Below, in pieces: positions 638 through 30,415 of a stretch of DNA of 32,772 bases. Positions within the stretch are counted from its first letter, which is position 1; each line of letters opens with the position of its first letter. The position numbers and the translations under genes were made by a program. Source of the DNA: Pseudomonadota bacterium (GTDB lineage: Bacteria; Oederibacteriota; Muellerivitia; Muellerivitales; Muellerivitaceae); NCBI GenBank assembly GCA_021324075.1, contig JAJPJW010000189.1:1-32772 (forward strand), written 5' to 3'. The notes beneath the pieces were generated by a model. That model saw only the letters and a list, made by a program, of their open reading frames with translations. It was not told the origin of the DNA and searched no databases.

Positions 638-1099
638 TTATTTTTTGGCGCCGCGCTGGCGGATCTTCTCGGCCAAAAGATACTTGTCGAGATGGACCAC
701 ATCCTTGCGGTTGACGGCGAGTATCTTGATGCCGGCCCGGTAGGTGGTGCCGTTCGAGCCGTTGGCGTCCACCTGGGCGCGGACCACCTCGGCGATCAGG
801 GTGATGGGGGTGGGGTAACCCGGCAGGTAAAGGTGGATCTGGAGGGCCGAATCGGCCGGGAAGGCCTGTTCCCCCACCAGGGCCATGCCTCCCATGGAGA
901 TGTCCCGGGTCACGGCGTGGAAGGTGGCCGACTTCTTGGAAAGCTCGGGCAGGTGGTCCGCCGAGGATTCCCGGTAGGACGGGTCGGAGAGGATTTGCAC
1001 CAGCTCCGCCTTGGGGATGAGGCAATAGGTGACTTTAATGGAAGCGTCGATGCGCTCGAACTGCCGTTTTTCCATCCACCCCGTGTGGATCGATGTCAT
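638..1099 (-). CDS. PilZ domain protein (putative cyclic di-GMP receptor)
   Basis: The protein has 153 residues. The PilZ motifs are present: R-x-x-x-R at residues 12-16 (in KRQFERID) and D-x-S-x-x-G at 66-71 (DISMGG), followed by beta-strand-rich sequence. In this family these residues bind cyclic di-GMP, and the protein usually acts as a small effector on motility, pili or enzymes. The start is supported by GAGGAG six bases before the ATG. No output domain is visible, so it is a stand-alone receptor. Its stop abuts the ATG of the deacetylase-family gene, suggesting co-translation and possibly cyclic di-GMP control of that enzyme (inference). A repeat element lies immediately upstream of its ribosome-binding site. 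Confidence 0.88.
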   Translation of the reverse strand: MTSIHTGWMEKRQFERIDASIKVTYCLIPKAELVQILSDPSYRESSADHLPELSKKSATFHAVTRDISMGGMALVGEQAFPADSALQIHLYLPGYPTPITLIAEVVRAQVDANGSNGTTYRAGIKILAVNRKDVVHLDKYLLAEKIRQRGAKK

Positions 1100-15552: not shown

Positions 15553-17208
15553 TTAGTAAACGAGAATAAACTTATCCCGCTTTACCACGTTTCCATTCCT
15601 TATCACCGCGTAAAAGTAAATCCCCGGAGTTACGAAAGTTCCCTGCATATTGGTCCCATCCCAATTGAACTGCCCACTGGAAGCGTTGGTTTGAAATACC
15701 TTCTCCCCCGCCAGCGTATAAAGGGAAACCTGGTCGCCCGGCTGGAGGCAGTCCATCTTCAGGGTCCCGCCTACCGCGAGCTTAGGATTGAAAGGTACGG
15801 GCCAAATCTTGACCTCGCAGACTGGCGTGGGAGTCAAAGTGGGGATCGGGGTCGGGGTGATGGTGGGGCTGGGCGTGGGCGTCAGGGTGGGGAGGCTGGT
15901 GAAAACCAGGCCCCCCGGATAACCGTAGGCGTCGCGGACGTCGAAACCGTAGGACTCCACGCCGAAAGGCGCGGGCCCGGAAAGCTTGTGGTAGCCGGGG
16001 CCGATGGTCACCTGGGCCGCCGAATAGCCGCTGGCCCCCACCGCCGCAAAGCTGCCCGCGGGGACCGCGGACCCGTCCAATAGGATGGAACCCGCTTCCG
16101 TGCTGGGTGCGGACAAGTTCACGTAATTCATGGAAAAACCCGTGGCGGGCGCCGCCAATTGGTAGGCCGTGCCGTAATCCGTGATGGGCGACACCGTGAT
16201 CTGGCAGGGGTCCCCCATGGTCACGTTGTCGTAGCTGTGGCTGTTGGAATATTGCATGACCAGGATGGGCGCCGTAGAGGTGACATAGGAGGCCGTGGAA
16301 AGTATCTGTTCGAAAAACTGGCCCTGGTTCAGGGTGGTAACGGCCGTGCCGTTGACACTGACCACCGTACCGTTGGCCGAGGCCAGGTAGCGGAAACTGT
16401 CCGAGCTCCGGCTTGCCAGGGGCACGGTAACAAAGGAAGTACCCCAGGTGGCCAGGGGGATTTCCTGCTCCAAGACCAGGTTGCAGGTGACGAAACTGAT
16501 TGGTACGTCGGCACAGGCATTGGCGGAAAACAAGGCGATGGGAACGTTGGAGGCCACCTGGGTTCCGGTGAGGTCGCTGCCCAAGAGATCGTCCTGCAAT
16601 TGGTAGGCCTGGCCCCGGTTCAAGTTGACCGTATAGGGGACCCCCGCGGGGTGGGAACCCACGGTGACGGGGGGGGTAATGGTGACGCTGGTGGAATCCT
16701 GCGACGCGGCCAATGCGAACTCCGAGGTGCTGATCGTCGTCGTGGCGCTCTGGTTGACGTCCGCCGTGTAGCTGGCCACCCAGTATTGGGTGCCGATGGC
16801 CCCCACGGGCAGGGCCAGATAGCCGTCGGTGGCGAATTGTTCGTATTCGAGCCCGAAAACGGTGATGTCGTTGTCCGCCGTGACGTGGATGGCCAGGGAC
16901 TGCAGTCCATCCGCCGTCGAAAGCATGGCCGTCTCGGGCAGGACCACCGTCACGGCCGAGTTGGCCGCCACTGAGAAGGTCTGGCCGTAGGAAAGCCCGG
17001 TGATGGAAACCTGCCCCGAGGCCCCCGTCTGGGAAAGGACGAAAAGATCCAGGGCTTGGGCGTAGGAAGGCACCAGGTACTGGGTGGGGAAGGCCAGCCA
17101 AAATTCCGTGCCTTGGGACGAAACAGGCGCCGCCCAAAGGGGCGGGGCCAAAAGGAAACCAAGCCCCAAGACCCAGCGGTGGATTGGAAGTGCAGCCTTC
17201 ATCTTCAT
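15553..17208 (-). CDS. Large secreted protein: IgGFc-binding-like region, Thr-Pro linker, FlgD-like tail
   Basis: The protein has 551 residues from the ATG at 17208, which has GGAGG ten bases upstream. A signal peptide (ending LWAA) is followed by GTEFWLAFPTQY, a hallmark of the IgGFc-binding protein N-terminal domain, continuing with repeated beta-rich segments to about residue 440. A 22-residue linker of alternating Thr-Pro (441-462) leads to an 89-residue C-terminal module: WPVPFNP, SLYTLAGEKVF, WDGTN, GIYFYAVI. This resembles FlgD Ig-like and secretion-tail domains, which anchor or target proteins to the cell surface. It is probably a surface adhesin or structural protein. The ligand is unknown, and the vertebrate-derived domain name does not imply antibody binding. 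Confidence 0.8.
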   Translation of the reverse strand: MKMKAALPIHRWVLGLGFLLAPPLWAAPVSSQGTEFWLAFPTQYLVPSYAQALDLFVLSQTGASGQVSITGLSYGQTFSVAANSAVTVVLPETAMLSTADGLQSLAIHVTADNDITVFGLEYEQFATDGYLALPVGAIGTQYWVASYTADVNQSATTTISTSEFALAASQDSTSVTITPPVTVGSHPAGVPYTVNLNRGQAYQLQDDLLGSDLTGTQVASNVPIALFSANACADVPISFVTCNLVLEQEIPLATWGTSFVTVPLASRSSDSFRYLASANGTVVSVNGTAVTTLNQGQFFEQILSTASYVTSTAPILVMQYSNSHSYDNVTMGDPCQITVSPITDYGTAYQLAAPATGFSMNYVNLSAPSTEAGSILLDGSAVPAGSFAAVGASGYSAAQVTIGPGYHKLSGPAPFGVESYGFDVRDAYGYPGGLVFTSLPTLTPTPSPTITPTPIPTLTPTPVCEVKIWPVPFNPKLAVGGTLKMDCLQPGDQVSLYTLAGEKVFQTNASSGQFNWDGTNMQGTFVTPGIYFYAVIRNGNVVKRDKFILVY

Positions 17209-17242
17209 CTCGTCCGGCCCTCCGCCCATGGGCGGAAATTAA

Positions 17243-18496: not shown

Positions 18497-19000
18497 TTAG
18501 CCGCGTTTGAAGGTCAGGCGCATTGAATTGGGGGGAGGCGGCTCGCTTTTAACCTGGTGGGCGTTCTTAAAAGCGGTTTCTTCCCGCAGTCTTTGTTCCT
18601 CGAGGGATTTGATGTTCTCGAAATCGTGCTTGTTCACCGCCGCAAACTGCAGGTCGCCCCGGAAAAGGGGCCTCTTCAGTTCGTGGAAGGTCTCGGTTTT
18701 TTTGACCTTGGCTAAAAGCCGCAATTTGGCCTTGTGGCGGGATACGAATAGTTCTAATTCGATGATTTCGTTCTTGGAAAAGACGCTTCCGGCCGTCAGT
18801 TGCATTTCGCCGTAATTTGTACCCTTATCCAGGACATAGTAAAGGCTCTCGTCACGGTAGCCGCCGCTGGAGGTGGGTGGGGGTTGCCCCTTCTTTTTGC
18901 GCGCGGTTTTTCTGATCTTCACCCGGTGGTATTTCACCTCCACCATGGAGACCAAACGCCCTTTGTTGTGTTTTTCAAGCCAGCCGGTTTTTTCGCTCAC
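18497..19000 (-). CDS. PilZ-like domain protein with degenerate motifs
   Basis: The protein has 167 residues starting with GTG, with AGGA six bases upstream. The middle (about 60-115: GEMQLTAGSVFSKNEIIELELFVSRHKAKLRLLAKV) has the strand pattern of PilZ domains. However, the D/N-x-S-x-x-G motif is altered to QLTAGS, and a clear R-x-x-x-R is missing, although a basic KTARKKK precedes. It may therefore not bind cyclic di-GMP, or be only a structural relative. The C-terminal 50 residues are charged, with SLEEQRLREE and a Pro-rich stretch. The gene is flanked by a repeat at its 3' end and has no close neighbours upstream. Confidence 0.55.
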   Translation of the reverse strand: MSEKTGWLEKHNKGRLVSMVEVKYHRVKIRKTARKKKGQPPPTSSGGYRDESLYYVLDKGTNYGEMQLTAGSVFSKNEIIELELFVSRHKAKLRLLAKVKKTETFHELKRPLFRGDLQFAAVNKHDFENIKSLEEQRLREETAFKNAHQVKSEPPPPNSMRLTFKRG

Positions 19001-19141: not shown

Positions 19142-19768
19142 TCACGAAAATATTTTTGAGAGGCTCGGCAGGATGTTCTCCTGTGTCAACTCACGCACCT
19201 TCGTCCCCTTCCCTTCCCACTCCTTAAGGCGCTGCTGGTGCTCCTCGAGGATCGGCCGGACGGCGCTTTCGGCGTAAACCGCCTTTAAATGGAGGGACAT
19301 CTGCTCCTCGGACGGCCGGTTGGCGCCCGTTAAAAGCTTGGCCGCTCCGTCCTGCGCGCAGGCGGTGACGAGGAAGGAATTGCCGGTGAAGGAATAAAGC
19401 TCCAGGTTGCTGATGACCACCTTGCCCCCCTCCTTCCCTTCCACCCAATTCACCAGCAGCAGGGCGGATTTGTGGTCGGGCGAAAGATAGGTACGGGCCC
19501 AGAAAAAGAGGGTGGAAGCGTAGGAGTAATCGCCGATGAGCCGATAGCCTTCCTGCTCCAGCTTCTGGCAAAGCTCCCTCTGCCATTTGGGGGTCAGGCG
19601 CTCGGTCATTTCTTCCGGGGCTTTGACCAGTTGGACGGAAATTTTGGGAAGGCCGCTGAAAGGATTTTCCAAACCGGCGGGTTTTCCCGAAAAGGGCTTT
19701 TCAGTGGCGAGGATATAACCCACGATCGCCGCGAAAAGGACAAGGATGATGATCCCGCCGGTTCCCAA
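19142..19768 (-). CDS. Membrane-anchored protein of unknown function at the end of the LemA/TPM operon
   Basis: The protein has 208 residues, starting at a TTG with GAGGAG five bases upstream. An N-terminal transmembrane helix (4-21) is followed by a soluble alpha/beta domain of about 180 residues, with a WARTYLSPDHKSALLLVNW segment and a charged helical C-terminus (LEEHQQRLKEWEGKGTKV). I recognise no family. It begins 26 bases after LemA and is the last gene of the run, so it is probably part of the same membrane-associated system. It carries two Cys residues with no metal motif. Confidence 0.65.
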   Translation of the reverse strand: MGTGGIIILVLFAAIVGYILATEKPFSGKPAGLENPFSGLPKISVQLVKAPEEMTERLTPKWQRELCQKLEQEGYRLIGDYSYASTLFFWARTYLSPDHKSALLLVNWVEGKEGGKVVISNLELYSFTGNSFLVTACAQDGAAKLLTGANRPSEEQMSLHLKAVYAESAVRPILEEHQQRLKEWEGKGTKVRELTQENILPSLSKIFS

Positions 19769-19794
19769 GGAAGCTCCTCAAATCCAGCGCGGTC

Positions 19795-20358
19795 TTAAAA
19801 CTGCACTTTCGGCGCATCCTGGGCTTCGTCCTTGGCCTTGAAATAGGAATCCCTCACCTTGAACCCGCCGATGGAGGCCATCAGGTTGGAGGGAAAGCTT
19901 TGGACCTTCACGTTGTAGTCCTGCACCGCCTGGTTGTAGCGCATGCGGGCCACCGCGATGCGGTTTTCCGTTCCCGCCAGTTCGTCCTGCAGCCTCAGGA
20001 AATTCTCATTGGCCTTGAGGTCCGGGTATTTCTCCACCACCACCATCAGCCGGCCGATGGCATCCTCCAGGTTGTTGGCGGCCTTGACCTGCGCATCCGT
20101 ATTATGGGCCTCGCCCCATTGGCTGCGCAGCCGGGTGACTTCCTCCAGCACGCTGCTCTCATGTTTGGCATAGCCCTTCACGGTGTTGACCAGGTTGGGG
20201 ATCAGGTCGTACCGGCGTTGGAGGTCCGTTTGCACGTTGGCCCAGGCGTTATCCACTCCCTGGTTGGAGGACACCAAACCGTTGTAAGAACCCACCAGCG
20301 CCAATCCGAAAAGAACGACAAATCCCAGGATCGCCCACAACCAGACTTTCGAAGACAT
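19795..20358 (-). CDS. lemA: LemA family protein
   Basis: The protein has 187 residues, standard for the family. A transmembrane helix (5-23) is followed by the LemA signature YNGLVSSNQGVDNAWANVQ and QRRYDLIPNLVNTVKGYAKHE, then a coiled-coil helical bundle with NRIAVARMRYNQAVQDYNVKV. A strong GGAGGT precedes the ATG. LemA proteins are inner-membrane proteins with a helical domain outside the cytoplasm; their biochemical role is not settled. They commonly neighbour TPM-domain proteins, as here, which suggests a shared complex. The operon context adds PEBP and nucleotidyltransferase partners. Confidence 0.95.
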   Translation of the reverse strand: MSSKVWLWAILGFVVLFGLALVGSYNGLVSSNQGVDNAWANVQTDLQRRYDLIPNLVNTVKGYAKHESSVLEEVTRLRSQWGEAHNTDAQVKAANNLEDAIGRLMVVVEKYPDLKANENFLRLQDELAGTENRIAVARMRYNQAVQDYNVKVQSFPSNLMASIGGFKVRDSYFKAKDEAQDAPKVQF

Positions 20359-20380
20359 ATTGACCTCCGGTCCTGATTTA

Positions 20381-20941
20381 TTATTTTCCGTACAAGCCCA
20401 TGATCTGCGTCTGGGCCAGGATATGCCCCTTCATGGCCTTTTCCACCCGGCTCTTCAAGGCCCCGCCGGCCAGGGGGAGGAACCGGTCGAGGGCGTAAAG
20501 CTTGAAGTAATATCGGTGGTTTCCGCTGGGCGGGCAAGGCCCGTCATAGCCGATTTTTTGGAAGTCATTGGCCCCCTGCAGGATGCCCTTTTCCGTTCTC
20601 TCATCCCGGGGAAAACCCTCCACCAGCTCGAAGGCATTGGTGTCGGGGTCGGCGATGAGGGGGATGTTAAAGACCACCCAATGGGTGAAGTTGAGGGTGG
20701 AGGCGTCCGGGTCCTCCACGACCAGGGCGAAGCACTTGGTTTTGGGGGGCGCGCCGCTCCAGCTCAACTCCGGGGAAAGGTTCTGGCCGTCGCAGGTGCA
20801 TTGCACGGGGATGCTTTTTCCGTCGGCGAAGGATTTACTCTGCAGCTTTAAGGCGGTTTTTTTCTGGGCCCCCGCTACCGGCCCCGCCACCCAAGCCAGC
20901 ACGGCCGGTAAAAGAAAGATCCACCAGCGGTTTGGTGCCAT
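20381..20941 (-). CDS. Exported YbhB/YbcL-type phosphatidylethanolamine-binding (PEBP, Raf-kinase-inhibitor-like) protein
   Basis: The protein has 186 residues from the ATG at 20941, which has AGGAGG six bases upstream, overlapping the stop codon of the nucleotidyltransferase; longer in-frame starts lack this. A signal peptide (about 25 residues, ending AGA) sends it to the periplasm. PEBP motifs are DPDAS...HWVVFNIP and YDGPCPPSGNHRYYFKLYALD, which form the anion/phospho-ligand pocket. It carries Cys residues (QCTC; PC) not seen in its cytoplasmic partner at 24313. The bacterial family has no agreed function. Its place between nucleotidyltransferase and LemA suggests it acts with the membrane components. 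Confidence 0.92.
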   Translation of the reverse strand: MAPNRWWIFLLPAVLAWVAGPVAGAQKKTALKLQSKSFADGKSIPVQCTCDGQNLSPELSWSGAPPKTKCFALVVEDPDASTLNFTHWVVFNIPLIADPDTNAFELVEGFPRDERTEKGILQGANDFQKIGYDGPCPPSGNHRYYFKLYALDRFLPLAGGALKSRVEKAMKGHILAQTQIMGLYGK

Positions 20942-20951
20942 GGCCCGCCTC

Positions 20952-21650
20952 CTATTTGACATTATCAATGATGGCCTCGATGGAATTCAGGTACTTTTCA
21001 AAAAGCACCAGGACATTCAAATCCCTGATCTTTTCCCCGCGTTTCAGGCGGTCGACGGTCTCGAAAGGCTCTTCGTCGAAGGCGATATGCTCCTTGAGCG
21101 CCCGCAAGGATTCCATCTTGTGCGGGGAGGGTTTGATCCCGTAAAGCCAAAGCGCGCTTTTAAACAACACCAAAAAAGTGGAGAGCGATTCCACCATGAG
21201 TTTTTCCACCTGGGAGGGCCGGGCTTCGGTGAGCATGAACCGGGTCTTGAGCCGCGTGAGCTTTCCCCGGAACTCGTGTTCCAACTCCACGCGCAGGTCG
21301 CCATGGGAAACCTTAAGCCCTTTGACCGGGTCGGGCCCGTGAAGGACCTGGTGGTTGTGCTGGATATCCAGGATCTCAATGGGAAAGACGTCCGGCGCGT
21401 GCTTCACCTGTTTCTGGGTCAGGAAGAGGGGCGGGGGATTCCCCTGGCGGGTCCAAGGAACGACCGCTTTGGAAAGGGCCAGGAGTTCCCGGGGCATGAG
21501 GGTCTTGGTGACCACCAGGAGGTTGATATCGGAGTTCTTCCCGGCGTGGTCACCCGCCGCCGCCGATCCATAGAGCACCACCGATACCAACTGCCCCCCG
21601 AGGAGGGTCTTGAGTTCTTCCAGCATTTTTTCCGTCGTCCATTTGGCCAT
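20952..21650 (-). CDS. Nucleotidyltransferase-fold protein, copy 1, with altered catalytic D-x-N
   Basis: The protein has 232 residues. The N-terminal pol-beta-type domain shows GSAAAGDHAGKNSDINLLV: the GS motif is followed by SDIN, where active members have D-x-D or D-x-E. A later acidic strand (PIEILDIQ) could supply the third carboxylate. The C-terminal half is a helical bundle (LEHEFRGKLTRLKTRFMLTEARPSQVEKLMVESL) like those of HEPN/KNTase-type partners. It is colinear and clearly homologous with copy 2 at 22693. Related stand-alone proteins exist with unknown function. Loss of one metal ligand suggests weak or no transferase activity, or a sensing role (inference). GAGG sites just before the ATG support the start. 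Confidence 0.82.
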   Translation of the reverse strand: MAKWTTEKMLEELKTLLGGQLVSVVLYGSAAAGDHAGKNSDINLLVVTKTLMPRELLALSKAVVPWTRQGNPPPLFLTQKQVKHAPDVFPIEILDIQHNHQVLHGPDPVKGLKVSHGDLRVELEHEFRGKLTRLKTRFMLTEARPSQVEKLMVESLSTFLVLFKSALWLYGIKPSPHKMESLRALKEHIAFDEEPFETVDRLKRGEKIRDLNVLVLFEKYLNSIEAIIDNVK

Positions 21651-21668
21651 AGCCTCACCTCGACCTTT

Positions 21669-21893
21669 TTAGTGTCCACCGCCATCCGCGCCGCCCCCAC
21701 CCGATTCCCCGCCGCCGAAACCGTCGAATCCCCCGCCGTGGCCCCCGTCGTAGGAATGGCTGCTCCCGCCATCGTCAGCTGAACCGCCCCCGGAACGGTT
21801 GTCCGGCTTGATCCTTGCCCTCAAAAAATTCATGGCCAGGATCCAGACGATGAAAAAGGCGGTCAGCAACCCGAAGAAGAGAAGTTCGTGCAT
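21669..21893 (-). CDS. Gly-rich membrane miniprotein between TPM and nucleotidyltransferase
   Basis: The protein has 74 residues, with the ATG at 21893 one base after the TPM stop codon, so translational coupling is likely. One transmembrane helix (4-24) is followed by RARIKPDNR and then a Gly/Ser/Asp/His-rich tail (about 34-74) with GGHGGGFDGFGGGESG. The tail resembles the Gly-rich end of the adjacent TPM proteins, so the gene may be a split-off TPM tail or a small partner. The frame stays open upstream across the TPM gene, which hides it as a separate gene. Coding is supported by the sensible hydrophobic N-terminus and tight spacing on both sides. Confidence 0.62.
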   Translation of the reverse strand: MHELLFFGLLTAFFIVWILAMNFLRARIKPDNRSGGGSADDGGSSHSYDGGHGGGFDGFGGGESGGGGADGGGH

Positions 21894-21894
21894 T

Positions 21895-22614
21895 TCACCA
21901 ACCCCCGCTGGCGCCGCCGCCACCCGAACCGCCACCGCCGAAACCGCCGAATCCCCCGCCGCTACTGCCGCCGCCGAAGCCGCCACCGCCCCAGCCGCCG
22001 TAGAACCCGCCGCCCCACCAGCCCCCAAAACGGATGCGGAGATACAGGTAAACCAGGAGGACGATGATAATGAGGATGACCTTGAGGATTTCCCCAACAC
22101 CCGGTCCTTTGTCGCCCCCGCTTCCCTGGGCCTGCCCCTTCTGGCCCTCTTGGATGATCTGGGCCAGGGCCTGGGCCCCAGTGGCCAGGCCCTGGCCGTA
22201 TTGTTGTTGTTGGAAGGAAGGATAAACCTTTTGGCGGAGGACATCCCCCGCATCGGCGTCCGTGACCACCCCTTCCAGGCCGTAACCCACTTCAATGCGT
22301 ACCCGGCGGTCGTTGATGGAGGCCAGGATGAGGATGCCGTTGTCTTTCCCTTTTTGGCCGATCCCCCAGGCCTGGAAGAGATCGACCGCGGCCCGGTCCA
22401 CGTCCCCGCCTTCCACCGAGGGGAAGGTGGCCACCACAATGGCATTGCCGGTCTTTTGCTGGTAGTCGTCGAGGTAGTTTTCGAGCTGGACCGCCTCGCC
22501 GGCGGGGATCACATGGGCGAAGTCATTGACCGCGCCGGTGGGCGCGGGCCATGGGGCCCCAAAGGCGGGGACAGCCAGGGCGATTAGGAAGAAAAGGGCC
22601 AGGATTTTTTTCAT
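21895..22614 (-). CDS. TPM-domain (YgcG-type) membrane protein with Gly-rich tail, copy 1
   Basis: The protein has 239 residues: signal peptide (1-20), TPM domain (about 26-155), transmembrane helix (about 176-193) and a Gly-rich tail (197-239). The domain core GIGQKGKDNGILILASINDRRVRIEVGYGLEG...TDADAGD is typical of the family, whose plant member TLP18.3 is a photosystem repair phosphatase-like protein. Bacterial members are poorly characterised and often adjoin LemA. The domain should face the periplasm. It is homologous to the TPM protein at 23442. The upstream gap of 78 bases after the second nucleotidyltransferase holds no terminator, so one transcript is likely. Confidence 0.92.
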   Translation of the reverse strand: MKKILALFFLIALAVPAFGAPWPAPTGAVNDFAHVIPAGEAVQLENYLDDYQQKTGNAIVVATFPSVEGGDVDRAAVDLFQAWGIGQKGKDNGILILASINDRRVRIEVGYGLEGVVTDADAGDVLRQKVYPSFQQQQYGQGLATGAQALAQIIQEGQKGQAQGSGGDKGPGVGEILKVILIIIVLLVYLYLRIRFGGWWGGGFYGGWGGGGFGGGSSGGGFGGFGGGGSGGGGASGGW

Positions 22615-22692
22615 CGGATGACAGGCTTTCGGGGATTTATTTGCGCTTGGTCTTCCCCATTCACCGCGCTCGGCCCAGGAATTTTGGAGAAT

Positions 22693-23391
22693 TTAGGACA
22701 ATTTTTCGACGACCGTCTCGATGGCTTCGACATATTTCTCGAAGGTGGCGGTGATATCCAGGTCCCCGATCCTTTCCCCTTGCTTCAACCGGTGGAGCGT
22801 TTCGAAGGGTTTCGGGTCGAATTTGATGCGCTTGGCCAGCCGCCGGAGGGCCTCCATCTTTTTCAAGGGCGGCTTTTCCCCGTAAACGGACAGGACCCCC
22901 TTGAACAGGACCAGGAAGGAGGACAGGGAATCCACCATGAGCCTTTCGACCAGGCTGGGCCGGGCCTCGGTGAGGGCATAGCGCGTTCTGAGCCGGAGGA
23001 GTTTTCCGCAAATTTCGTGCTCCAGTTCGATCCGCAGGCGGGCCTTCTGCACCTTCAGGCGGGCAATGGGGTCCTTCCCGTAAAGGACCTTGTGGTTGTG
23101 CTGCATGTCCTGGATCTCAACCGGGAAAACGTCCGTCAGCTCCGTCAAATGGCCCTGGGCCATCAGGATGGGTGCCGCGTTGCCCTGCTTGACCCAGGGC
23201 ACCATGGCCTTAGAGAGCAACTGCAGGTCTTCGGCCTTGAGGGCCTTCGTTTCCACCAGCAAATTGACGTCGGAGTTTTTCCCCGAGTGGTCCCCGCCGG
23301 CCGCCGACCCGAAGAGGACCACCGACACCAGCCGTCCTCCCAGGTGTTTTTTAAGCTCTTCCAGCATTTCTTCAGTTGTCCAATTTCCCAT
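22693..23391 (-). CDS. Nucleotidyltransferase-fold protein, copy 2, with altered catalytic D-x-N
   Basis: The protein has 232 residues, exactly the length of copy 1, and aligns to it without gaps. In the first 60 positions about 42 match by eye. The motif reads GSAAGGDHSGKNSDVNLLV, again with Asn in place of the second catalytic acid. The shared blocks DVFP-x-EI, QHNH-x-VL, LEHE and TEARPS mark it as a recent duplicate rather than a chance neighbour. The conserved Asn suggests the change arose before the duplication and is functional. It follows TPM copy 2 by 50 bases and precedes TPM copy 1 by 78 bases. Confidence 0.85.
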   Translation of the reverse strand: MGNWTTEEMLEELKKHLGGRLVSVVLFGSAAGGDHSGKNSDVNLLVETKALKAEDLQLLSKAMVPWVKQGNAAPILMAQGHLTELTDVFPVEIQDMQHNHKVLYGKDPIARLKVQKARLRIELEHEICGKLLRLRTRYALTEARPSLVERLMVDSLSSFLVLFKGVLSVYGEKPPLKKMEALRRLAKRIKFDPKPFETLHRLKQGERIGDLDITATFEKYVEAIETVVEKLS

Positions 23392-23441
23392 GGCCTTTTC
23401 CTTTGTTGAAAACTTGGGGCTCCCGGCCCCGATCCGGTGTT

Positions 23442-24269
23442 TTACCAGCTTCCGGTGGCGCCACCGCCGCCCGACGAACCGCCGCCGCCGCTGAAACCGC
23501 CGCTACTGCCCGAACTGCTGGAGCTCCCGCCGGAGCTTCCGCCTCCCCAACTGCTTCCGCCCGAACCGCCGCCGCTCCCTCCACCCCAACTGCTTCCGCC
23601 CCAGTAGTGGTAGTTGTTGACGTAATAACCACGGCGGTATCCGCTTCCCGTCCCGGAATTGGACGCAATGGCGACGAAAACGACGACGAGCAGCACGACG
23701 ATTCCGACAAGGAAGATCATGGTCTGGAAGTCGTTACCGGTGTAGTTTGAGGAACCTGAGTAACTGTGGGTGGAGGCCGGGAGGCTGCCGTATTGGGTGA
23801 TACTGTCGCCGATGGCGTGGGCCGCCTTGGAAAGCCCCGTGCCGTAGTTCCCTTCCTTGAAGGAGGGGGCCATCTTATAGCGGATGATGTCGCCCGCGTC
23901 GCCGTCGGTGATGGTGCCTTCCATCCCATAGCCCACTTCGATGCGGACCTTCCGGTCCTTGATGGCGGCCAGGATCAGGACGCCGTTGTCTTTTCCCTTT
24001 TGGCCGATGCCCCATGTCTTGAAGAGGTCGGCCGCCGCCTCGTTGATGTCCCCGCCCTTGATGCGGGGAACGGTGACGACGACCACCTGGGCCGTGGTGC
24101 TTTTCTCAAGGTCCCGCAGGTAGCGGTTGATTTTTGCCGCCTGGGCTTGGGGAATGACCTCGGCGAAATCGTTGACGTAACCAACCGGTTTGGGCCAGTG
24201 GTGCTCGGCCGCCAGGGAGGCGAAGGAAAGCAGGAATAAGGCTGGAAGGAAAAAGAGGATTTTTTTCAT
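23442..24269 (-). CDS. TPM-domain (YgcG-type) membrane protein with Gly/Ser-rich tail, copy 2
   Basis: The protein has 275 residues: signal peptide (1-20), TPM domain (about 28-158), transmembrane helix (about 184-202), and a tail with a YRRGYYVNNYHYW segment followed by Gly/Ser-rich repeats to the C-terminal Trp. The core (GIGQKGKDNGVLILAAIKDRKVRIEVGYGMEG...TDGDAGD) closely matches copy 1. The linker before the helix is longer and Ser/Thr/Tyr-rich. Together with the nucleotidyltransferase after it, it forms the first copy of the repeated module. Confidence 0.92.
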   Translation of the reverse strand: MKKILFFLPALFLLSFASLAAEHHWPKPVGYVNDFAEVIPQAQAAKINRYLRDLEKSTTAQVVVVTVPRIKGGDINEAAADLFKTWGIGQKGKDNGVLILAAIKDRKVRIEVGYGMEGTITDGDAGDIIRYKMAPSFKEGNYGTGLSKAAHAIGDSITQYGSLPASTHSYSGSSNYTGNDFQTMIFLVGIVVLLVVVFVAIASNSGTGSGYRRGYYVNNYHYWGGSSWGGGSGGGSGGSSWGGGSSGGSSSSSGSSGGFSGGGGSSGGGGATGSW

Positions 24270-24312
24270 TCGGGAACCGCCTGAAAGAATGTCCGGCAGA
24301 TACGAACCACGG

Positions 24313-24777
24313 CTATTGCGCGCGCTGGTACTTTCCCATCAATTCGGCCTGCCCAATAATACGCCTTAGGAGCGATCTTTCCAATTGCGCCTTTTTGACA
24401 TCCCCCTCCAGGTCCAACACGGCGGTTAAGGCGAATAGCTTGAAATAATAGCGGTGGGTGCCGCCGGGCGGGGCCGGGCCCTGGTAGCCCGTACTGCCGA
24501 AATCATTGAGGCCCTGCCGGGTGCCGTTGGGGAGGGATTTCAAGGATGGGAAAGCCTCGGGGAATTGGGTCATGTTGGCGGGGACGTTGAAAATCACCCA
24601 ATGGGCGAAGCTTCCGCCGGGCGCGTCCGGGTCGTCACAAATGAGGGCGAAGGTCTTGGTGCCTTTGGGGGCGTCCTTCCATTCCAGGGGCGGGGAAACA
24701 TCCTCCCCGTCGGCGGTGTAATGGGGCGGGATCATTCCCCCATCCTTGAAAGCCCGGCTGGTCAGTTGGAAGGCCAC
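24313..24777 (-). CDS. Cytoplasmic YbhB/YbcL-type PEBP protein
   Basis: The protein has 154 residues. I place the start at the GTG at 24777 because GGAGG stands five bases before it; a TTG at 24792 would lie in front of its own ribosome-binding site. There is no signal peptide. Motifs are DPDAPGGSFAHWVIFNVP and GPAPPGGTHRYYFKLFALT, the ligand pocket of the family. It shares the fold with the exported PEBP at 20381, so the operon begins with a cytoplasmic and nearly ends with a periplasmic version. The gap to the TPM gene is 43 bases. The ligand is unknown. Confidence 0.92.
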   Translation of the reverse strand: MAFQLTSRAFKDGGMIPPHYTADGEDVSPPLEWKDAPKGTKTFALICDDPDAPGGSFAHWVIFNVPANMTQFPEAFPSLKSLPNGTRQGLNDFGSTGYQGPAPPGGTHRYYFKLFALTAVLDLEGDVKKAQLERSLLRRIIGQAELMGKYQRAQ

Positions 24778-25883: not shown

Positions 25884-26306
25884 TTATGACAAAAAACCCC
25901 GGTAAAGCATGAAATAAACCAGGACCCCGGTCACCGAAACGTAAAGCCAGATGGGGAAGGTAACCCGGGCGATCTTCCGGTGTTTTTCGAAGTCACCCTT
26001 GAGGGCCCGCCGGAGGGTGATCACCGCCAAAACCGGCACGGTAGCCGCCAGGATCGTATGCGTCGTCAAAACAAAGAAATAAAAACCCCTCACCCAGCCC
26101 TGGCCATGGTAAAGGACGATCCCCGCCAAGGCGTGGTGTACCAGGTAGGAGATAAGGAAGACCACCGAAACAGTAAAGGCCGAGACCATGCAGGCGCGGT
26201 GGGCCTGCCGGTTGCCCTGCCGGATGAAGCTGTAGCCCGTCAGGAGCAGGACGGCGCTCAAACCGTTCAGGCCCGCGTTGATCATCGGCAGGATGTTGAT
26301 GTTCAT
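25884..26306 (-). CDS. DUF420 membrane protein (oxidase-assembly associated)
   Basis: The protein has 140 residues with four transmembrane helices and conserved His residues in loops or helices (SYLVHHALAG; TTHTILAA; FEKHRKIAR), as in the DUF420 family. These proteins are regularly encoded with SCO, CtaA/CtaB and cytochrome oxidase genes, and are thought to help oxidase or heme-copper assembly; the mechanism is unknown. Its ATG overlaps the SCO stop by four bases (ATGA), giving strong translational coupling. It closes the assembly operon. Confidence 0.88.
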   Translation of the reverse strand: MNINILPMINAGLNGLSAVLLLTGYSFIRQGNRQAHRACMVSAFTVSVVFLISYLVHHALAGIVLYHGQGWVRGFYFFVLTTHTILAATVPVLAVITLRRALKGDFEKHRKIARVTFPIWLYVSVTGVLVYFMLYRGFLS

Positions 26307-26944
26307 GTGTGGGACCAGGAACCCAGGAGGTGTTTGATGTCCTGTTTGAGCTTCAAAACTTCCTCGTCGTTTTCCCCGTCATAGAGCCCGCGGATCTTCC
26401 CATCCCCGTCCACCAGGACCATGCGGGTGCTGTGAATGAACTCGAACCCCGGCCCGGCTTCGTAATCCCGGTCCGCGATTTCCTTGAAGCCGCCACGGAT
26501 GGTCTGGTAGAGATCGGCCTTGGTTCCGGTCAGGAAAAACCACTGGCTGGGGTCGGCGTGGTAATCGTCGGCGTATTGTTTCAGCGCCTCCACCGTGTCC
26601 CGCTCGGGGTCCACCGTAAAGGTGACCAGCTTGAAATCCTTGTTTCCCTTCCAGCTGTCCTGCAGACCCATCATCTTCTGGCTCAACATCGGGCAGGACC
26701 CGGCGCAATGGGAGAAGATGAAGTCCACCACCCAGACCTTCCCTTTCAACTCCGAGCTGGAAAAAAGGCGGCCGCTGCGGTCCATGAAGGAAAAACGGGG
26801 GACCGAATCCTCCGGGTTCAGGAACTTGTCCGTGGGGTGCAGGTCCCAGGACCGCCAGCCCAAAAAGGCCAGGGCGCCGATGGCGGCAAGGGCCAGGGCG
26901 GCCTTGGGAAGAGAAAAGGAGGGCGCTTTTTTACCTTTTTTCAT
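26303..26944 (-). CDS. SCO1/SenC family copper chaperone for cytochrome oxidase
   Basis: The protein has 213 residues from the ATG at 26944 (GGAGAAG upstream); a longer frame reading into the upstream gene is unlikely. An N-terminal membrane anchor (about 14-30) is followed by a thioredoxin-like domain. The copper ligands are C80-x3-C84 (SHCAGSCP) and H171 (FEFIHSTRM). SCO proteins deliver copper to the CuA site of oxidase subunit II or reduce its cysteines, outside the inner membrane. The gene overlaps the upstream ABC permease by 14 bases and DUF420 by 4. A source of excess copper handling, the cus genes, lies elsewhere in the window. Confidence 0.93.
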   Translation of the reverse strand: MKKGKKAPSFSLPKAALALAAIGALAFLGWRSWDLHPTDKFLNPEDSVPRFSFMDRSGRLFSSSELKGKVWVVDFIFSHCAGSCPMLSQKMMGLQDSWKGNKDFKLVTFTVDPERDTVEALKQYADDYHADPSQWFFLTGTKADLYQTIRGGFKEIADRDYEAGPGFEFIHSTRMVLVDGDGKIRGLYDGENDEEVLKLKQDIKHLLGSWSHT

Positions 26945-27677
26945 GGGTCTTCTCCACGGCCCAGGAAGAGAGGGCGTAAAAGAACAGCGAGACACCGGCT
27001 AAAACGGCCAGGCAGGTGGGTAAGTCGGGGATGGGGCCCAAATCCGTCCCTGCGAAAAGACCGCGCCGGACCCCTGCCACTCCGTAGGTAAAAGGGTTGA
27101 GTTTCATGACCGCCGCCATCCAGGGCGACCCGCTTCCGGCGAAGACCGCGCCCGAAGCCATCCAAAGGGGGAGGAGCACCATGTTCATGATGGTATGGAA
27201 TCCCGCGCGGGATTCGATCTTCCAGGCCAGCCAGAACCCCATGGCGTTGATGACGAAGGCGAGGAGGAAAAGTGAAAGGATCAGCCCCAGCAGGGGGAGG
27301 AATTGGAAGCCCGCACCCACCGACAGCGCCGCCGGGAGGAGGATCAGGCCCTGAAAGGTGGAAAGGGTGGCCCCGCCCAGGATCTTGCCCATGACGATGG
27401 CCGTCCGGGGCACGGGCGCCACCATGACGGACTGGAGGAACCCTTCCTGCCGGTCCTCGATAACCGAGGCGTTGGAAAAGATGCAGGCGAAAAGGACGCT
27501 CATGACCATGGTGCCGGGCAGGAAATAGGCCCGGTAATTGGCCACGGGAATGCCCGTCCCCAGCACCCCCCAAAAGAGCAGGGCGGTCCCGATGGACCCC
27601 ATCACCCAGCTGGGCTGGCGGTAGAACCGCACCAGTTCCCTCTGCCAGAGGGTGTAAACGGCCATCCAAAAGTTCAT
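26931..27677 (-). CDS. ABC-2 type transporter permease
   Basis: The protein has 248 residues with six transmembrane helices in the ABC-2 layout. Family motifs are YRAYFLPGTMVMSVLFACIF, VIEDRQEGFLQSVMVAPVPR and the late NPFTYGVAGVRR. It pairs with the ATPase upstream, with which it overlaps by four bases (ATGA). ABC-2 exporters of this type move lipids, polysaccharides, drugs or, in some cases, heme-related factors. The tight placement between heme synthesis genes and SCO suggests a role in oxidase biogenesis, but the substrate is not shown by sequence. Confidence 0.92.
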   Translation of the reverse strand: MNFWMAVYTLWQRELVRFYRQPSWVMGSIGTALLFWGVLGTGIPVANYRAYFLPGTMVMSVLFACIFSNASVIEDRQEGFLQSVMVAPVPRTAIVMGKILGGATLSTFQGLILLPAALSVGAGFQFLPLLGLILSLFLLAFVINAMGFWLAWKIESRAGFHTIMNMVLLPLWMASGAVFAGSGSPWMAAVMKLNPFTYGVAGVRRGLFAGTDLGPIPDLPTCLAVLAGVSLFFYALSSWAVEKTHEKR

Positions 27678-28606
27678 TCCTTCTCCTCCGTCAAACGGCG
27701 GCCCGTTTTATGGATGAAAACGTCTTCGAGGGTCGGCAAGCCGATGGTCAGGGAAAGGATTTCATTCGGAAAGGCTTCCAAGAGCGGCGCCACCAGGTTG
27801 TGGGCCTTGGGTTCCTCAATTTGGATCAGGCCGCTCAACAAAAGGGTCTTCACTTTCAAACGGGTTGCGATGGCTTGAGCCATGGCCTCCGGATCCCGGG
27901 TCTTCACCCGCAGCACTTCCCCTCCGATTTCGGCTTTCAATTCTTCTGGCTTCCCCAGGGCCACCTTTTGGCCCCTGTCCAGGATGAGCAGCCGGTCACA
28001 GCGGTCCGCTTCTTCCAGGTAGTGGGTCGTCACCAGGACCGTCATCCCCTGACCTTTGCGGAGGATTTCCAGGTGGTCCCAGAATTCCCTGCGGGCCGCC
28101 GGGTCCAGCCCCGTGGAGGGCTCGTCCAGGATCATGAGTTCGGGATTGTTGATGAGCGCCTTGGCCAGCTCCACCCGCCGTTGGAGGCCGCCCGACAAGG
28201 TTTTCACCTTGTCCTTGGACCGCTCCGTCAGGCTGACCCGGTCCAGGTCCCGTTCGATGCGTTTTTGCAGTTCGGCCCCGCCGATTCCGTAGAGATGGCC
28301 CTGATGTTCCATGTTCTCTCGGACGGTCAGTTGCTTGTCCAGGGCCGGCTTCTGGAACACGATGCCCATCTTGCGGCGGATGGCCATCTTGTCCTTGGAA
28401 AGGTCCAGGCCGAACATCTTCACCTGTCCCGGTCGGGAGGAAAAAAGGGTGGAGAGGACCTTGAAGGTGGTGGTCTTGCCCCCGCCGTTGGGGCCCAGGA
28501 AGCCGAAGATTTCGCCGCGGCCCACGGAAAAACTCAAACCCGCCAGGGCCGTCTTGGCGCCGTACTGGTAGGTGAGGTTGTCGACTTCGATCACGTTTTC
28601 CAACAC
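27674..28606 (-). CDS. ABC transporter ATP-binding protein
   Basis: The protein has 310 residues. Walker A is GPNGGGKTT (38-46), the signature is LSGGLQRR, Walker B is LMILDEPSTGLDP, and the H-loop is in TTHYLEE. The C-terminal extension of about 80 residues (VLRVKTRDPEAMAQAI onward) is typical of DrrA/CcmA-like ABC-2 exporters. The start is ambiguous: GTG at 28606 or TTG at 28603, both just after AAGGGG. It energises the permease whose ATG overlaps its stop. It follows heme O synthase by 22 bases. Confidence 0.94.
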   Translation of the reverse strand: MLENVIEVDNLTYQYGAKTALAGLSFSVGRGEIFGFLGPNGGGKTTTFKVLSTLFSSRPGQVKMFGLDLSKDKMAIRRKMGIVFQKPALDKQLTVRENMEHQGHLYGIGGAELQKRIERDLDRVSLTERSKDKVKTLSGGLQRRVELAKALINNPELMILDEPSTGLDPAARREFWDHLEILRKGQGMTVLVTTHYLEEADRCDRLLILDRGQKVALGKPEELKAEIGGEVLRVKTRDPEAMAQAIATRLKVKTLLLSGLIQIEEPKAHNLVAPLLEAFPNEILSLTIGLPTLEDVFIHKTGRRLTEEKE

Positions 28607-28628
28607 AACCCCTTGGTTGAATTGAGCC

Positions 28629-29483
28629 TCAGGCCTTGTCCAGCACCATCACCAGGAAGAGGATCGGCAGGTAGGTGATGGAAAACCAAAATAGCCCCCG
28701 GGCGTTGTAAAGGCTCCGGTTCAGGGCCATGCGGCAGCTGTAAAACAAGAAGGCAGAACTTAACACAAGGGCCGCCCAAAAATATACGTGCCCCGTCATA
28801 TGGAAATAGGCGGGCAGCAGGGAGGTGGGCAGGAGGGCCACCGCGTAGGCCACGGCCATGAGGCCCGTGGAGCCGCCCTTGGGGTCGACCACCGCCAGCA
28901 TGGGGAACCCCGCCCGGGCGTAATCGTCCCGGTACATCCAGCCGATGGCGAGGAAATGGGGCATTTGCCAGAAGAAGAGGATGGCGAAGAGGGTCCAGCC
29001 CGCGGGCCCGATGGCGTCTTTGGCCGCCGCCCAGCCCATGAGGGGTGGGATGGCGCCCGGGATGGCGCCTACCACCGTGCACAGGGAGCTGATTCTTTTC
29101 AGGGGGGTGTACATCACGATGTAGCTTACCAGGGCCGCCACCCCCAGGAAGGCCGCCAGGTCGTTGACGAAAAAGAAAAGGATGGCGGTCCCCAAGACCG
29201 AAAGGCCGGCGCCGAACCAAAGGGCCCGGTCCTTTTTCAGCCTTCCGGAGGGCAGGGGCCGCTTGCGGGTGCGGGCCATGCGGCCGTCCGCCTCCGCCTC
29301 CAGCCACTGGTTGAGGGTGCCGCAGCCCGCCGCCACGGCCGTGATCCCCAAAAGCACCCAAGCCATCAGCCCCCAGTTGAAGGGGCGGCCGCTGCCCATG
29401 CAAAAACCGATGACGGCCGTGAAAATGGCCTCGGAGTTGAGGCGCGGCTTGGTGAGGGAGATGTAATCCCTTAGGTTCTTCAA
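28629..29483 (-). CDS. ctaB: Protoheme IX farnesyltransferase (heme O synthase)
   Basis: The protein has 284 residues from a TTG at 29483, with AAGGGG eight bases upstream; the TTG overlaps the heme A synthase stop (TTGA). It is a UbiA-superfamily enzyme with about eight to nine helices. The first prenyl-binding motif is N58-x3-E62-x3-D66 in NQWLEAEADGRMARTRKRPLPSG. The second region is FWQMPHFLAIGWMYRDDYARAGFPML. It attaches a farnesyl group to heme B to make heme O, the precursor of heme A, in the inner membrane. The gene pairs with ctaA upstream, which implies an aa3-type (heme A) oxidase in this organism. Confidence 0.95.
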   Translation of the reverse strand: MKNLRDYISLTKPRLNSEAIFTAVIGFCMGSGRPFNWGLMAWVLLGITAVAAGCGTLNQWLEAEADGRMARTRKRPLPSGRLKKDRALWFGAGLSVLGTAILFFFVNDLAAFLGVAALVSYIVMYTPLKRISSLCTVVGAIPGAIPPLMGWAAAKDAIGPAGWTLFAILFFWQMPHFLAIGWMYRDDYARAGFPMLAVVDPKGGSTGLMAVAYAVALLPTSLLPAYFHMTGHVYFWAALVLSSAFLFYSCRMALNRSLYNARGLFWFSITYLPILFLVMVLDKA

Positions 29484-30415
29484 GAAACCGGCCCCTTTTT
29501 GAACAAGTGGTGGCTGTTGAGGGTGAGGACCATCAGGGAGGCCAGGGTGGCCGCGCCCACGATGACGTGCAGGGAGGTCGGCACCACGTCCTTGGAAGTG
29601 GCGATGACGATGAGCCCCAGGAAGCACTGGAGCCAGACCAAGAGCCCCGCCGCCGCCGCGGGCAGGCGCAGGGCGTCGACTTCCGGGTAATGGAGGCAGA
29701 CCCGGTAGGCCGTGTGGGTGATGAGGTAAAGCACGATGAAGGCGCCGATGCGGGTATGGCTGAATTGCAGGGCGATGGAGGCGGACCATTCGGGAGGAAG
29801 CAACTGCCCGAAGGAAAGGGGCCAGTCCGGAATGGCGAGGCCCGAGCCGCTGTGGCGCGTTACCGCGCCCACGAGGATCTGGAGGTAGGTGACGGCCGTC
29901 GTCAGGGTCGCCCAAAACCGGAGGGACGAGGGCCTATCGGCCAGCGAGTTAGGCCCGGCTTCGATCCAGCCTTGGGACGTCACCAGGGTGAGGCTGACAA
30001 TAAGGCAAAAGAAAATCTGGGCCAGGCCCGCATGCGCCACTGAAATTTGTGTGGGCAGGTGCAAAAGCACCGTGGCCCCGCCCAAAACCGCCTGGAGGAC
30101 GATGGCCCCCATCGCCACCCAGGCCAGCTTCTTCACCCAGGCGCGTTGCTCCATAACTTGGGTGGTAATGGCCAGGCCCAGCATGAGGATGGCCACCGTG
30201 CCCGCCACCATGCGGTGGCCGTGCTCGAAGAGGACGCCACCCTTCATTTCAGGGAAGAACTTGCCGAAGGAAAGGGGCCAATCCGGGACCGCCAGGCTGG
30301 AACCCGTGCTGGTCACCAAGGCGCCGGCCAGGAGCAGCAGGAAGGTGCATCCCGCCGTCACCAGGGCGTAGCGGTGGAGCGCGGGGTGGTAGGGGGCGGT
30401 TTCTCGGGGGCTCAT
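29480..30415 (-). CDS. ctaA: Heme A synthase (COX15/CtaA family)
   Basis: The protein has 311 residues, eight transmembrane helices in two related halves. Each half has the loop motif with PDWPLSFG (LAVPDWPLSFGKFFP and LAIPDWPLSFGQLLP). Four conserved His ligands appear in FEHGHRMVAG, SVAHAGLAQ, QFSHTRIGAF and PTSLHVIVGA. It oxidises the C8 methyl of heme O to a formyl, giving heme A, in the inner membrane. It is the first gene of the assembly operon, separated from the lipoprotein upstream by a terminator, so a promoter probably lies between 30416 and 30437 or read-through occurs. Confidence 0.95.
   Translation of the reverse strand: MSPRETAPYHPALHRYALVTAGCTFLLLLAGALVTSTGSSLAVPDWPLSFGKFFPEMKGGVLFEHGHRMVAGTVAILMLGLAITTQVMEQRAWVKKLAWVAMGAIVLQAVLGGATVLLHLPTQISVAHAGLAQIFFCLIVSLTLVTSQGWIEAGPNSLADRPSSLRFWATLTTAVTYLQILVGAVTRHSGSGLAIPDWPLSFGQLLPPEWSASIALQFSHTRIGAFIVLYLITHTAYRVCLHYPEVDALRLPAAAAGLLVWLQCFLGLIVIATSKDVVPTSLHVIVGAATLASLMVLTLNSHHLFKKGPVS

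Follow-up and report, generated by a model that had tools for sequence, protein, structure and literature searches.

A TPM-NT-LemA gene cassette recurring across phyla and carrying a nucleotidyltransferase-like protein with an altered active site

Introduction

The window analyzed here is a stretch of bacterial DNA of 32,772 nt, and its source contig (C157) is part of a 3.57-Mb genome bin. On the minus strand, between positions 19142 and 24777 (all coordinates are positions in the window), nine co-directional genes follow one another: a cytoplasmic PEBP/YbhB-like protein (PEBPc), a TPM-domain protein (TPM1), a nucleotidyltransferase-like protein (NT1; the family is called NT below), a second TPM protein (TPM2), a Gly-rich miniprotein, a second NT (NT2), an exported PEBP/YbhB-like protein (PEBPx), LemA and a membrane-anchored protein referred to as the anchor. 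The successive intergenic gaps are 43, 50, 78, 1, 18, 10, 22 and 26 bases. This is the array, with gaps of 1–78 bases, that the original prediction had described from the letters of the DNA, and all nine genes are present in the order it gave. The question that the locus raises is whether such an array represents an undescribed membrane-associated gene system and, if so, which of the nine genes belong to it.

LemA and TPM proteins range from E. coli-like bacteria to chloroplasts. The conserved core proved to be smaller than nine genes and comprises TPM, NT and LemA. At this locus, a LemA-TPM operon is indeed extended by a further component, a nucleotidyltransferase-like protein in which the active site is consistently altered.

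The conserved core and its spread

In the window, the core is represented by TPM2 (21895..22614; Pfam TPM 9.4e-39), NT2 (20952..21650) and LemA (19795..20358; Pfam LemA 2e-61), with TPM1 (23442..24269; Pfam TPM 1.4e-43) and NT1 (22693..23391) as second copies. Both TPM proteins have a signal peptide, the TPM domain, a transmembrane helix and a Gly-rich tail, which ends in GGGGATGSW in TPM1 and in GGGGASGGW in TPM2. LemA has one N-terminal transmembrane helix and falls, in the LemA tree, in the group that is linked to TPM and NT. As in LemA-TPM operons, the two domains score over their Pfam cut-offs and their genes are neighbors on the same strand. The NT proteins match Pfam NTP_transf_2 weakly, with 24.5 and 21.5 bits (the latter for NT1) being just above the cut-off of 21 bits. 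NT2 is the ortholog of the single NT found in same-genus genomes.

When NT2 was used for searching, NT was found in 30 of the 45 genomes of the window's phylum. LemA or TPM lies no more than 4 kb from 29 of the 33 NT genes in that phylum; the remaining four are two genes at contig ends and two that are divergent. Seen from the LemA side, every LemA gene of the phylum with a confident TPM neighbor also has NT (22/22), 21 of these by coordinates and one, in G018, with NT at a contig edge where it is visible in locus L154. Approximately 50 other LemA genes in the phylum are without both TPM and NT. The exception is family f5, where NT is absent and the gene between those for an M48 peptidase and LemA encodes a divergent TPM-like protein (L148, L149, L151 and L152); in L148, this protein scores 20.4 bits with Pfam TPM, which is just under the cut-off. 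Over the 45 genomes, the co-occurrence of NT and TPM has a Fisher p of 5.6e-8, which is not corrected for kinship.

In a separate genome collection, a wider search through 84,980 species genomes yielded 231 confirmed relatives. The best 80 of these were read, and their neighbors within 6 kb were clustered. In the 79 loci clustered, NT was present in 79, TPM in 73 and LemA in 68, invariably on the same strand. Every other neighbor cluster at 6 kb is confined to 10 of these 79 loci or fewer. NT occurs in about 26 of 150 genomes in the phylum sample of an Elusimicrobia record (counting full-length matches only, with 197 bits or more; the one ranked next has 47 bits), in about 57 of 247 in that of a Terriglobia record and in about 52 of 193 in that of an Omnitrophota record. 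Sixty loci were read from those three phyla, and here TPM is adjacent in all 60 and both TPM and LemA are present in 56. Because the core recurs in other phyla, the co-location of the three genes is not due to chance.

The order of the genes differs by lineage. It is TPM-NT-LemA in the phyla of the Elusimicrobia and Terriglobia records and NT-TPM-LemA in that of the Omnitrophota record, with LemA-TPM-NT also among the orders seen, so the linkage is not one frozen arrangement. Spacing is tight: where NT precedes TPM the median is -4 bases, an overlap of start and stop, and the TPM-NT and NT-LemA medians are both 21 bases. By record title, further groups include Bipolaricaulota, Myxococcota, Gemmatimonadota, Methylomirabilota and Kiritimatiellia. 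Some of these titles conflict with the genome grouping (the 'Spirochaetia' contig of L101 is G042 and the Methylomirabilis contig of L140 is G036, both of the window's phylum) and for this reason the cassette is firmly placed in four phyla and is likely to be present in more.

A literature search, restricted to open-access papers, for LemA together with a TPM domain and a nucleotidyltransferase returned no paper on the triad. Thus, as far as the open-access literature shows, the TPM-NT-LemA cassette appears to be undescribed. The proposal of an undescribed membrane-associated system is therefore apparently borne out in the form of this core. Its nucleotidyltransferase belongs to the system, and the case named in advance as refuting it, that such genes would rarely be near LemA or TPM elsewhere, is strongly contradicted by the neighborhood counts.

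The NT protein

The AlphaFold2 model of NT has a mean pLDDT of 94.9. In Foldseek, it matches AAD(9) and AadA best (E 5e-7 to 6e-6, TM-score about 0.6), followed by HalB (TM-score 0.49) and kanamycin nucleotidyltransferase; MNT was also matched. The predicted fold is that of a nucleotidyltransferase with its GS motif, as indicated by the AAD(9) match at E 5e-7 and by G28 and S29, which are near-invariant.

The active site is altered relative to these enzymes. In AadA, D47, D49 and E87 bind two Mg ions (PMC6065190). Profile comparison with plasmid-derived AadA sequences aligns SDINLLV of NT to SDIDLLV, which pairs N43 with AadA D49; in the window, SDIN (NT2) and SDVN (NT1) replace SDxD. Asn replaces the second metal-binding Asp in 82 of 84 NT sequences and, in a second set that includes the window reference, in 59 of 62 rows. 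The first Asp (D41) is kept in most NT proteins and is Asn in some lineages (12 of the 62 rows). Neither columns 70–77 nor strand 75–78 of NT hold an acid; this strand would correspond to that of AadA Glu-87, as suggested by secondary structure and by a global alignment that is weak. As read from these alignments, the altered site is a fixed feature of the NT family and not decay in one genome, and the Asp-x-Asp metal pair of catalytic Pol beta-type nucleotidyltransferases (AadA/ANT) is absent. The site argues against ordinary two-metal nucleotide transfer, while ligand binding or unusual chemistry would remain compatible with it.

Other positions are strictly kept. P74, P90, E92 and G105 are invariant in all 84 NT sequences, a family-specific motif, DVFPhEFhD…G, is nearly invariant, and S40, D41, N43 and E92 are near-invariant together with G28 and S29. 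This conservation bears on two unlikely alternatives, which we rate about equally. In the first, NT would be an active but unusual transferase, whose D-x-N site with E92 and D95 would use one metal or a different chemistry to modify TPM, LemA or a lipid or sugar with a nucleotide, thereby switching the complex. The pocket residues are indeed kept and are not drifting, and MNT antitoxins, which belong to the same superfamily, AMPylate their partner proteins (titles of PDB 7ae9 and 7aer). However, of the three metal ligands that two-metal catalysis uses, two appear to be lacking, and even D41 is replaced in the lineages noted above. In the second, NT would act purely as a structural adaptor on the Gly-rich cytoplasmic tail of TPM, or on LemA, with no small-molecule ligand. 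The overlap of the NT and TPM genes and the position of the invariant motif outside the classical pocket (P90, E92 and G105) are what one would expect of an adaptor, but the nucleotide- or phosphate-contacting GS...S positions are nearly invariant as well and the TPM tail shows no NT-specific change, its GGGGxxGxW-type motif being present also where there is no NT.

The plain reading of NT as an aminoglycoside resistance enzyme is rejected, as resistance models score far below their cut-offs and the D-x-D pair is absent. Natural NT fusions were not supported either: the long frames in L059 and L061 yielded no Pfam domain and seem to be NT frames that merely extend upstream. A search of plasmids with NT gave chance matches only.

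The LemA and TPM context

A tree of 70 LemA proteins places those that have neither TPM nor NT on one side of a branch (support 98/98), and in it the NT label changes only 4 times, versus 23.6 in shuffles. Two NT-linked LemA proteins, L115 and L127 from Myxococcota and Gemmatimonadota records, fall within the LemA-TPM-TPM group. From this placement, the linkage of NT to LemA probably arose or moved more than once, by separate recruitment or by transfer.

HtpX-type M48 peptidases act in membrane protein quality control. In the window's phylum, the LemA genes that are not linked to NT are paired with genes for M48 membrane peptidases in 14 of the 19 loci read (L146, L148–L153, L158–L163 and L165). 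In addition, the TPM domain has been interpreted as a chaperone-like or repair factor (PMC11237479). Taken together, the M48 pairing and this interpretation of TPM suggest a role for the cassette in membrane-protein maintenance.

Proposed role of NT

The best explanation, which we hold tentatively and at somewhat less than even confidence, is that NT is a non-catalytic regulator or scaffold of a LemA-TPM membrane-maintenance assembly, with TPM-NT-LemA as the core cassette. TPM is exported and membrane-anchored, its TPM domain lying outside the cytoplasmic membrane and its Gly-rich tail following the transmembrane helix, and LemA is a membrane-anchored helical protein. NT, predicted to be cytoplasmic and to have the AadA-type fold, appears to have lost two of the three metal-binding acids, but it retains the first Asp, the serines that bind phosphate and a surface specific to the family (P74, D87-F-P-x-E92, G105, R120 and E124). 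It would not transfer nucleotides and may instead bind a nucleotide, a ligand resembling one or only a partner protein. In a physical complex with LemA and TPM, NT would regulate or scaffold the assembly, which in turn would assemble, repair or clear membrane proteins under stress.

Several points weigh against this explanation. D41 is kept in most NT proteins, which could mean residual metal binding, and the equivalence to AadA E87, drawn from secondary structure and the global alignment, is weak. The topology of LemA by the positive-inside rule is ambiguous (52/104). Moreover, NT is dispensable for some LemA-TPM pairs: in 30 TPM loci of Acidobacteriota, 8 are LemA-TPM-TPM, 10 are LemA/TPM pairs, 9 contain NT and 3 are others, so that 18 of the 30 have LemA and no NT.

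A bolder form of the regulator proposal, possible but doubtful, is that the silenced adenylyltransferase fold is a widespread cytoplasmic sensor of a nucleotide (or alarmone), which would control the extracytoplasmic LemA-TPM maintenance machine via the transmembrane segment and tail of TPM. A nucleotide-type sensor is compatible with the degenerate active site of NT.

NT provides a concrete handle on LemA-TPM operons, since it is a cytoplasmic third partner with a known fold and with conservation across several phyla. It points to where cytoplasmic input could be sought and supplies invariant residues for mutation. If NT is an enzyme-derived sensor, it would give bacteria a well-sampled example of how a nucleotidyltransferase can become a regulator.

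Local additions and neighboring genes

The remaining genes of the array are local additions of later date, and so is the second TPM-NT set. NT1 and NT2 are approximately 60% identical and are not sisters in the tree. NT2 and TPM2 cluster with the single copies of same-genus genomes (TPM2 is 73% identical to its same-genus copy), whereas NT1 joins, at moderate support (90/74), the NT proteins of other genera in the family, and the branch of TPM1 lies below the other TPM proteins. Given these separate positions, a recent tandem duplication is rejected and the second set is, on the trees, an older paralog or acquired copy. Two TPM-NT sets are thus present, as the original prediction had it, but they did not arise by a recent tandem event, and two NT genes in one cassette were found in this genome only, so that the double set is not supported as part of the system.

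PEBPc (24313..24777; Pfam PBP 1e-40) has a GTG start with GGAGG upstream. It is not the sister of PEBPx, occurs at this position in the window's genome only and is absent upstream of TPM in L034 and L038. PEBPx (20381..20941; Pfam PBP 9.7e-38) starts with ATG after AGGAGG, has a signal peptide and sits between NT and LemA in relatives within the window's family. A PEBP gene beside the cassette is confined to that family and one genome of its order, and PEBP proteins can no longer be counted as parts of the system. The same applies to the Gly-rich miniprotein (21669..21893; 74 aa), which lacks a TPM domain but has a transmembrane helix and, much as TPM does, a Gly-rich tail; it looks like a TPM remnant, and none was found in the TPM-NT gaps of relatives. 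The anchor (19142..19768; 208 aa) has one N-terminal transmembrane helix and no Pfam family match, and is conserved (62–82% identity) in the window's family only. Its fold model is of low confidence (pLDDT 71), and a structure search with it gave no match at E <0.5.

It is very unlikely that all nine genes, including PEBP on both sides, form one functional unit. The tight co-directional spacing of the array, and the retention of PEBPx and the anchor in the window's family, speak for such a unit, but PEBPc, TPM1, NT1 and the miniprotein are all absent from same-genus G028 (L034) and PEBP is absent from other lineages. As to PEBPc and the duplication, the nine-gene unit is largely refuted. A promoter scan of the locus gave a signal barely above shuffled background, and operon limits were not drawn from it.

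Next to the anchor, a 167-aa protein without a Pfam match (18497–19000) is retained downstream of it in the same genus (L034 and L039) and weakly resembles another frame of the window (641–1099). Further along, positions 15553–17229 encode a protein of 558 aa, which combines an IgGFc_binding domain with a CHU_C-like sorting domain at its C-terminus. A cytochrome oxidase assembly group (25887–30415) occupies the same strand upstream of the array and comprises COX15/CtaA, a UbiA-type (CtaB-like) protein, an ABC transporter pair, SCO1/SenC and DUF420; it did not recur as a neighbor of the cassette in other phyla in the 6-kb clustering.

Comparison with known systems

AadA and AAD(9), which are Pol beta-type nucleotidyltransferases, share with NT the nucleotidyltransferase domain, a C-terminal helical domain and the GS...S-D motif. 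NT differs from them in having Asn at the Asp-49 position, a different conserved motif and no acid in columns 70–77, and it is only 15–17% identical.

Hailong HalB and MNT/MntA also have a related fold and occur in a small, two-gene context with another protein, and so a defense or toxin-antitoxin role for the cassette, in the manner of MNT-HEPN or of Hailong (a nucleotidyltransferase with a membrane protein), was weighed. We consider it highly improbable. Apart from the Foldseek matches to HalB and MNT, there are weak PADLOC matches to candidate nucleotidyltransferase families (best 1.3e-8), but LemA and TPM have none, the catalytic Asp pair is absent and the cassette is single copy with a vertical-looking spread across whole phyla. 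HalB and MNT/MntA carry the canonical D-x-D, and NT loci are without their HalA or HEPN partners, neither of which is among the recurrent neighbor clusters. The HalB model gives NT 18.8 bits against a cut-off of 190, and the only recurrent partners are TPM and LemA, unlike in HalA-HalB. In type VII MNT-HEPN toxin-antitoxin pairs, an MNT of approximately 100 aa with D-x-D accompanies a HEPN toxin gene, whereas NT has 232 aa and D-x-N, with no HEPN-like recurrent neighbor.

In the PspA-TPM (ydjFGH-type) envelope stress operons (PMC11237479), a TPM gene likewise shares an operon with a membrane-bound helical protein and is read as chaperone-like. In contrast to this and the PSP system, PspA is no recurrent neighbor of NT in the 79 loci, its place being taken by LemA and NT. 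The LemA-TPM operons (PF04011 and PF04536) are also among the closest known systems, as the LemA of the window belongs to the TPM-linked group and adjoins an exported TPM protein with a Gly-rich tail. The third gene is a further TPM, or is missing, in other LemA-TPM loci of Acidobacteriota, whereas the cassette of the window adds NT as a third conserved component.

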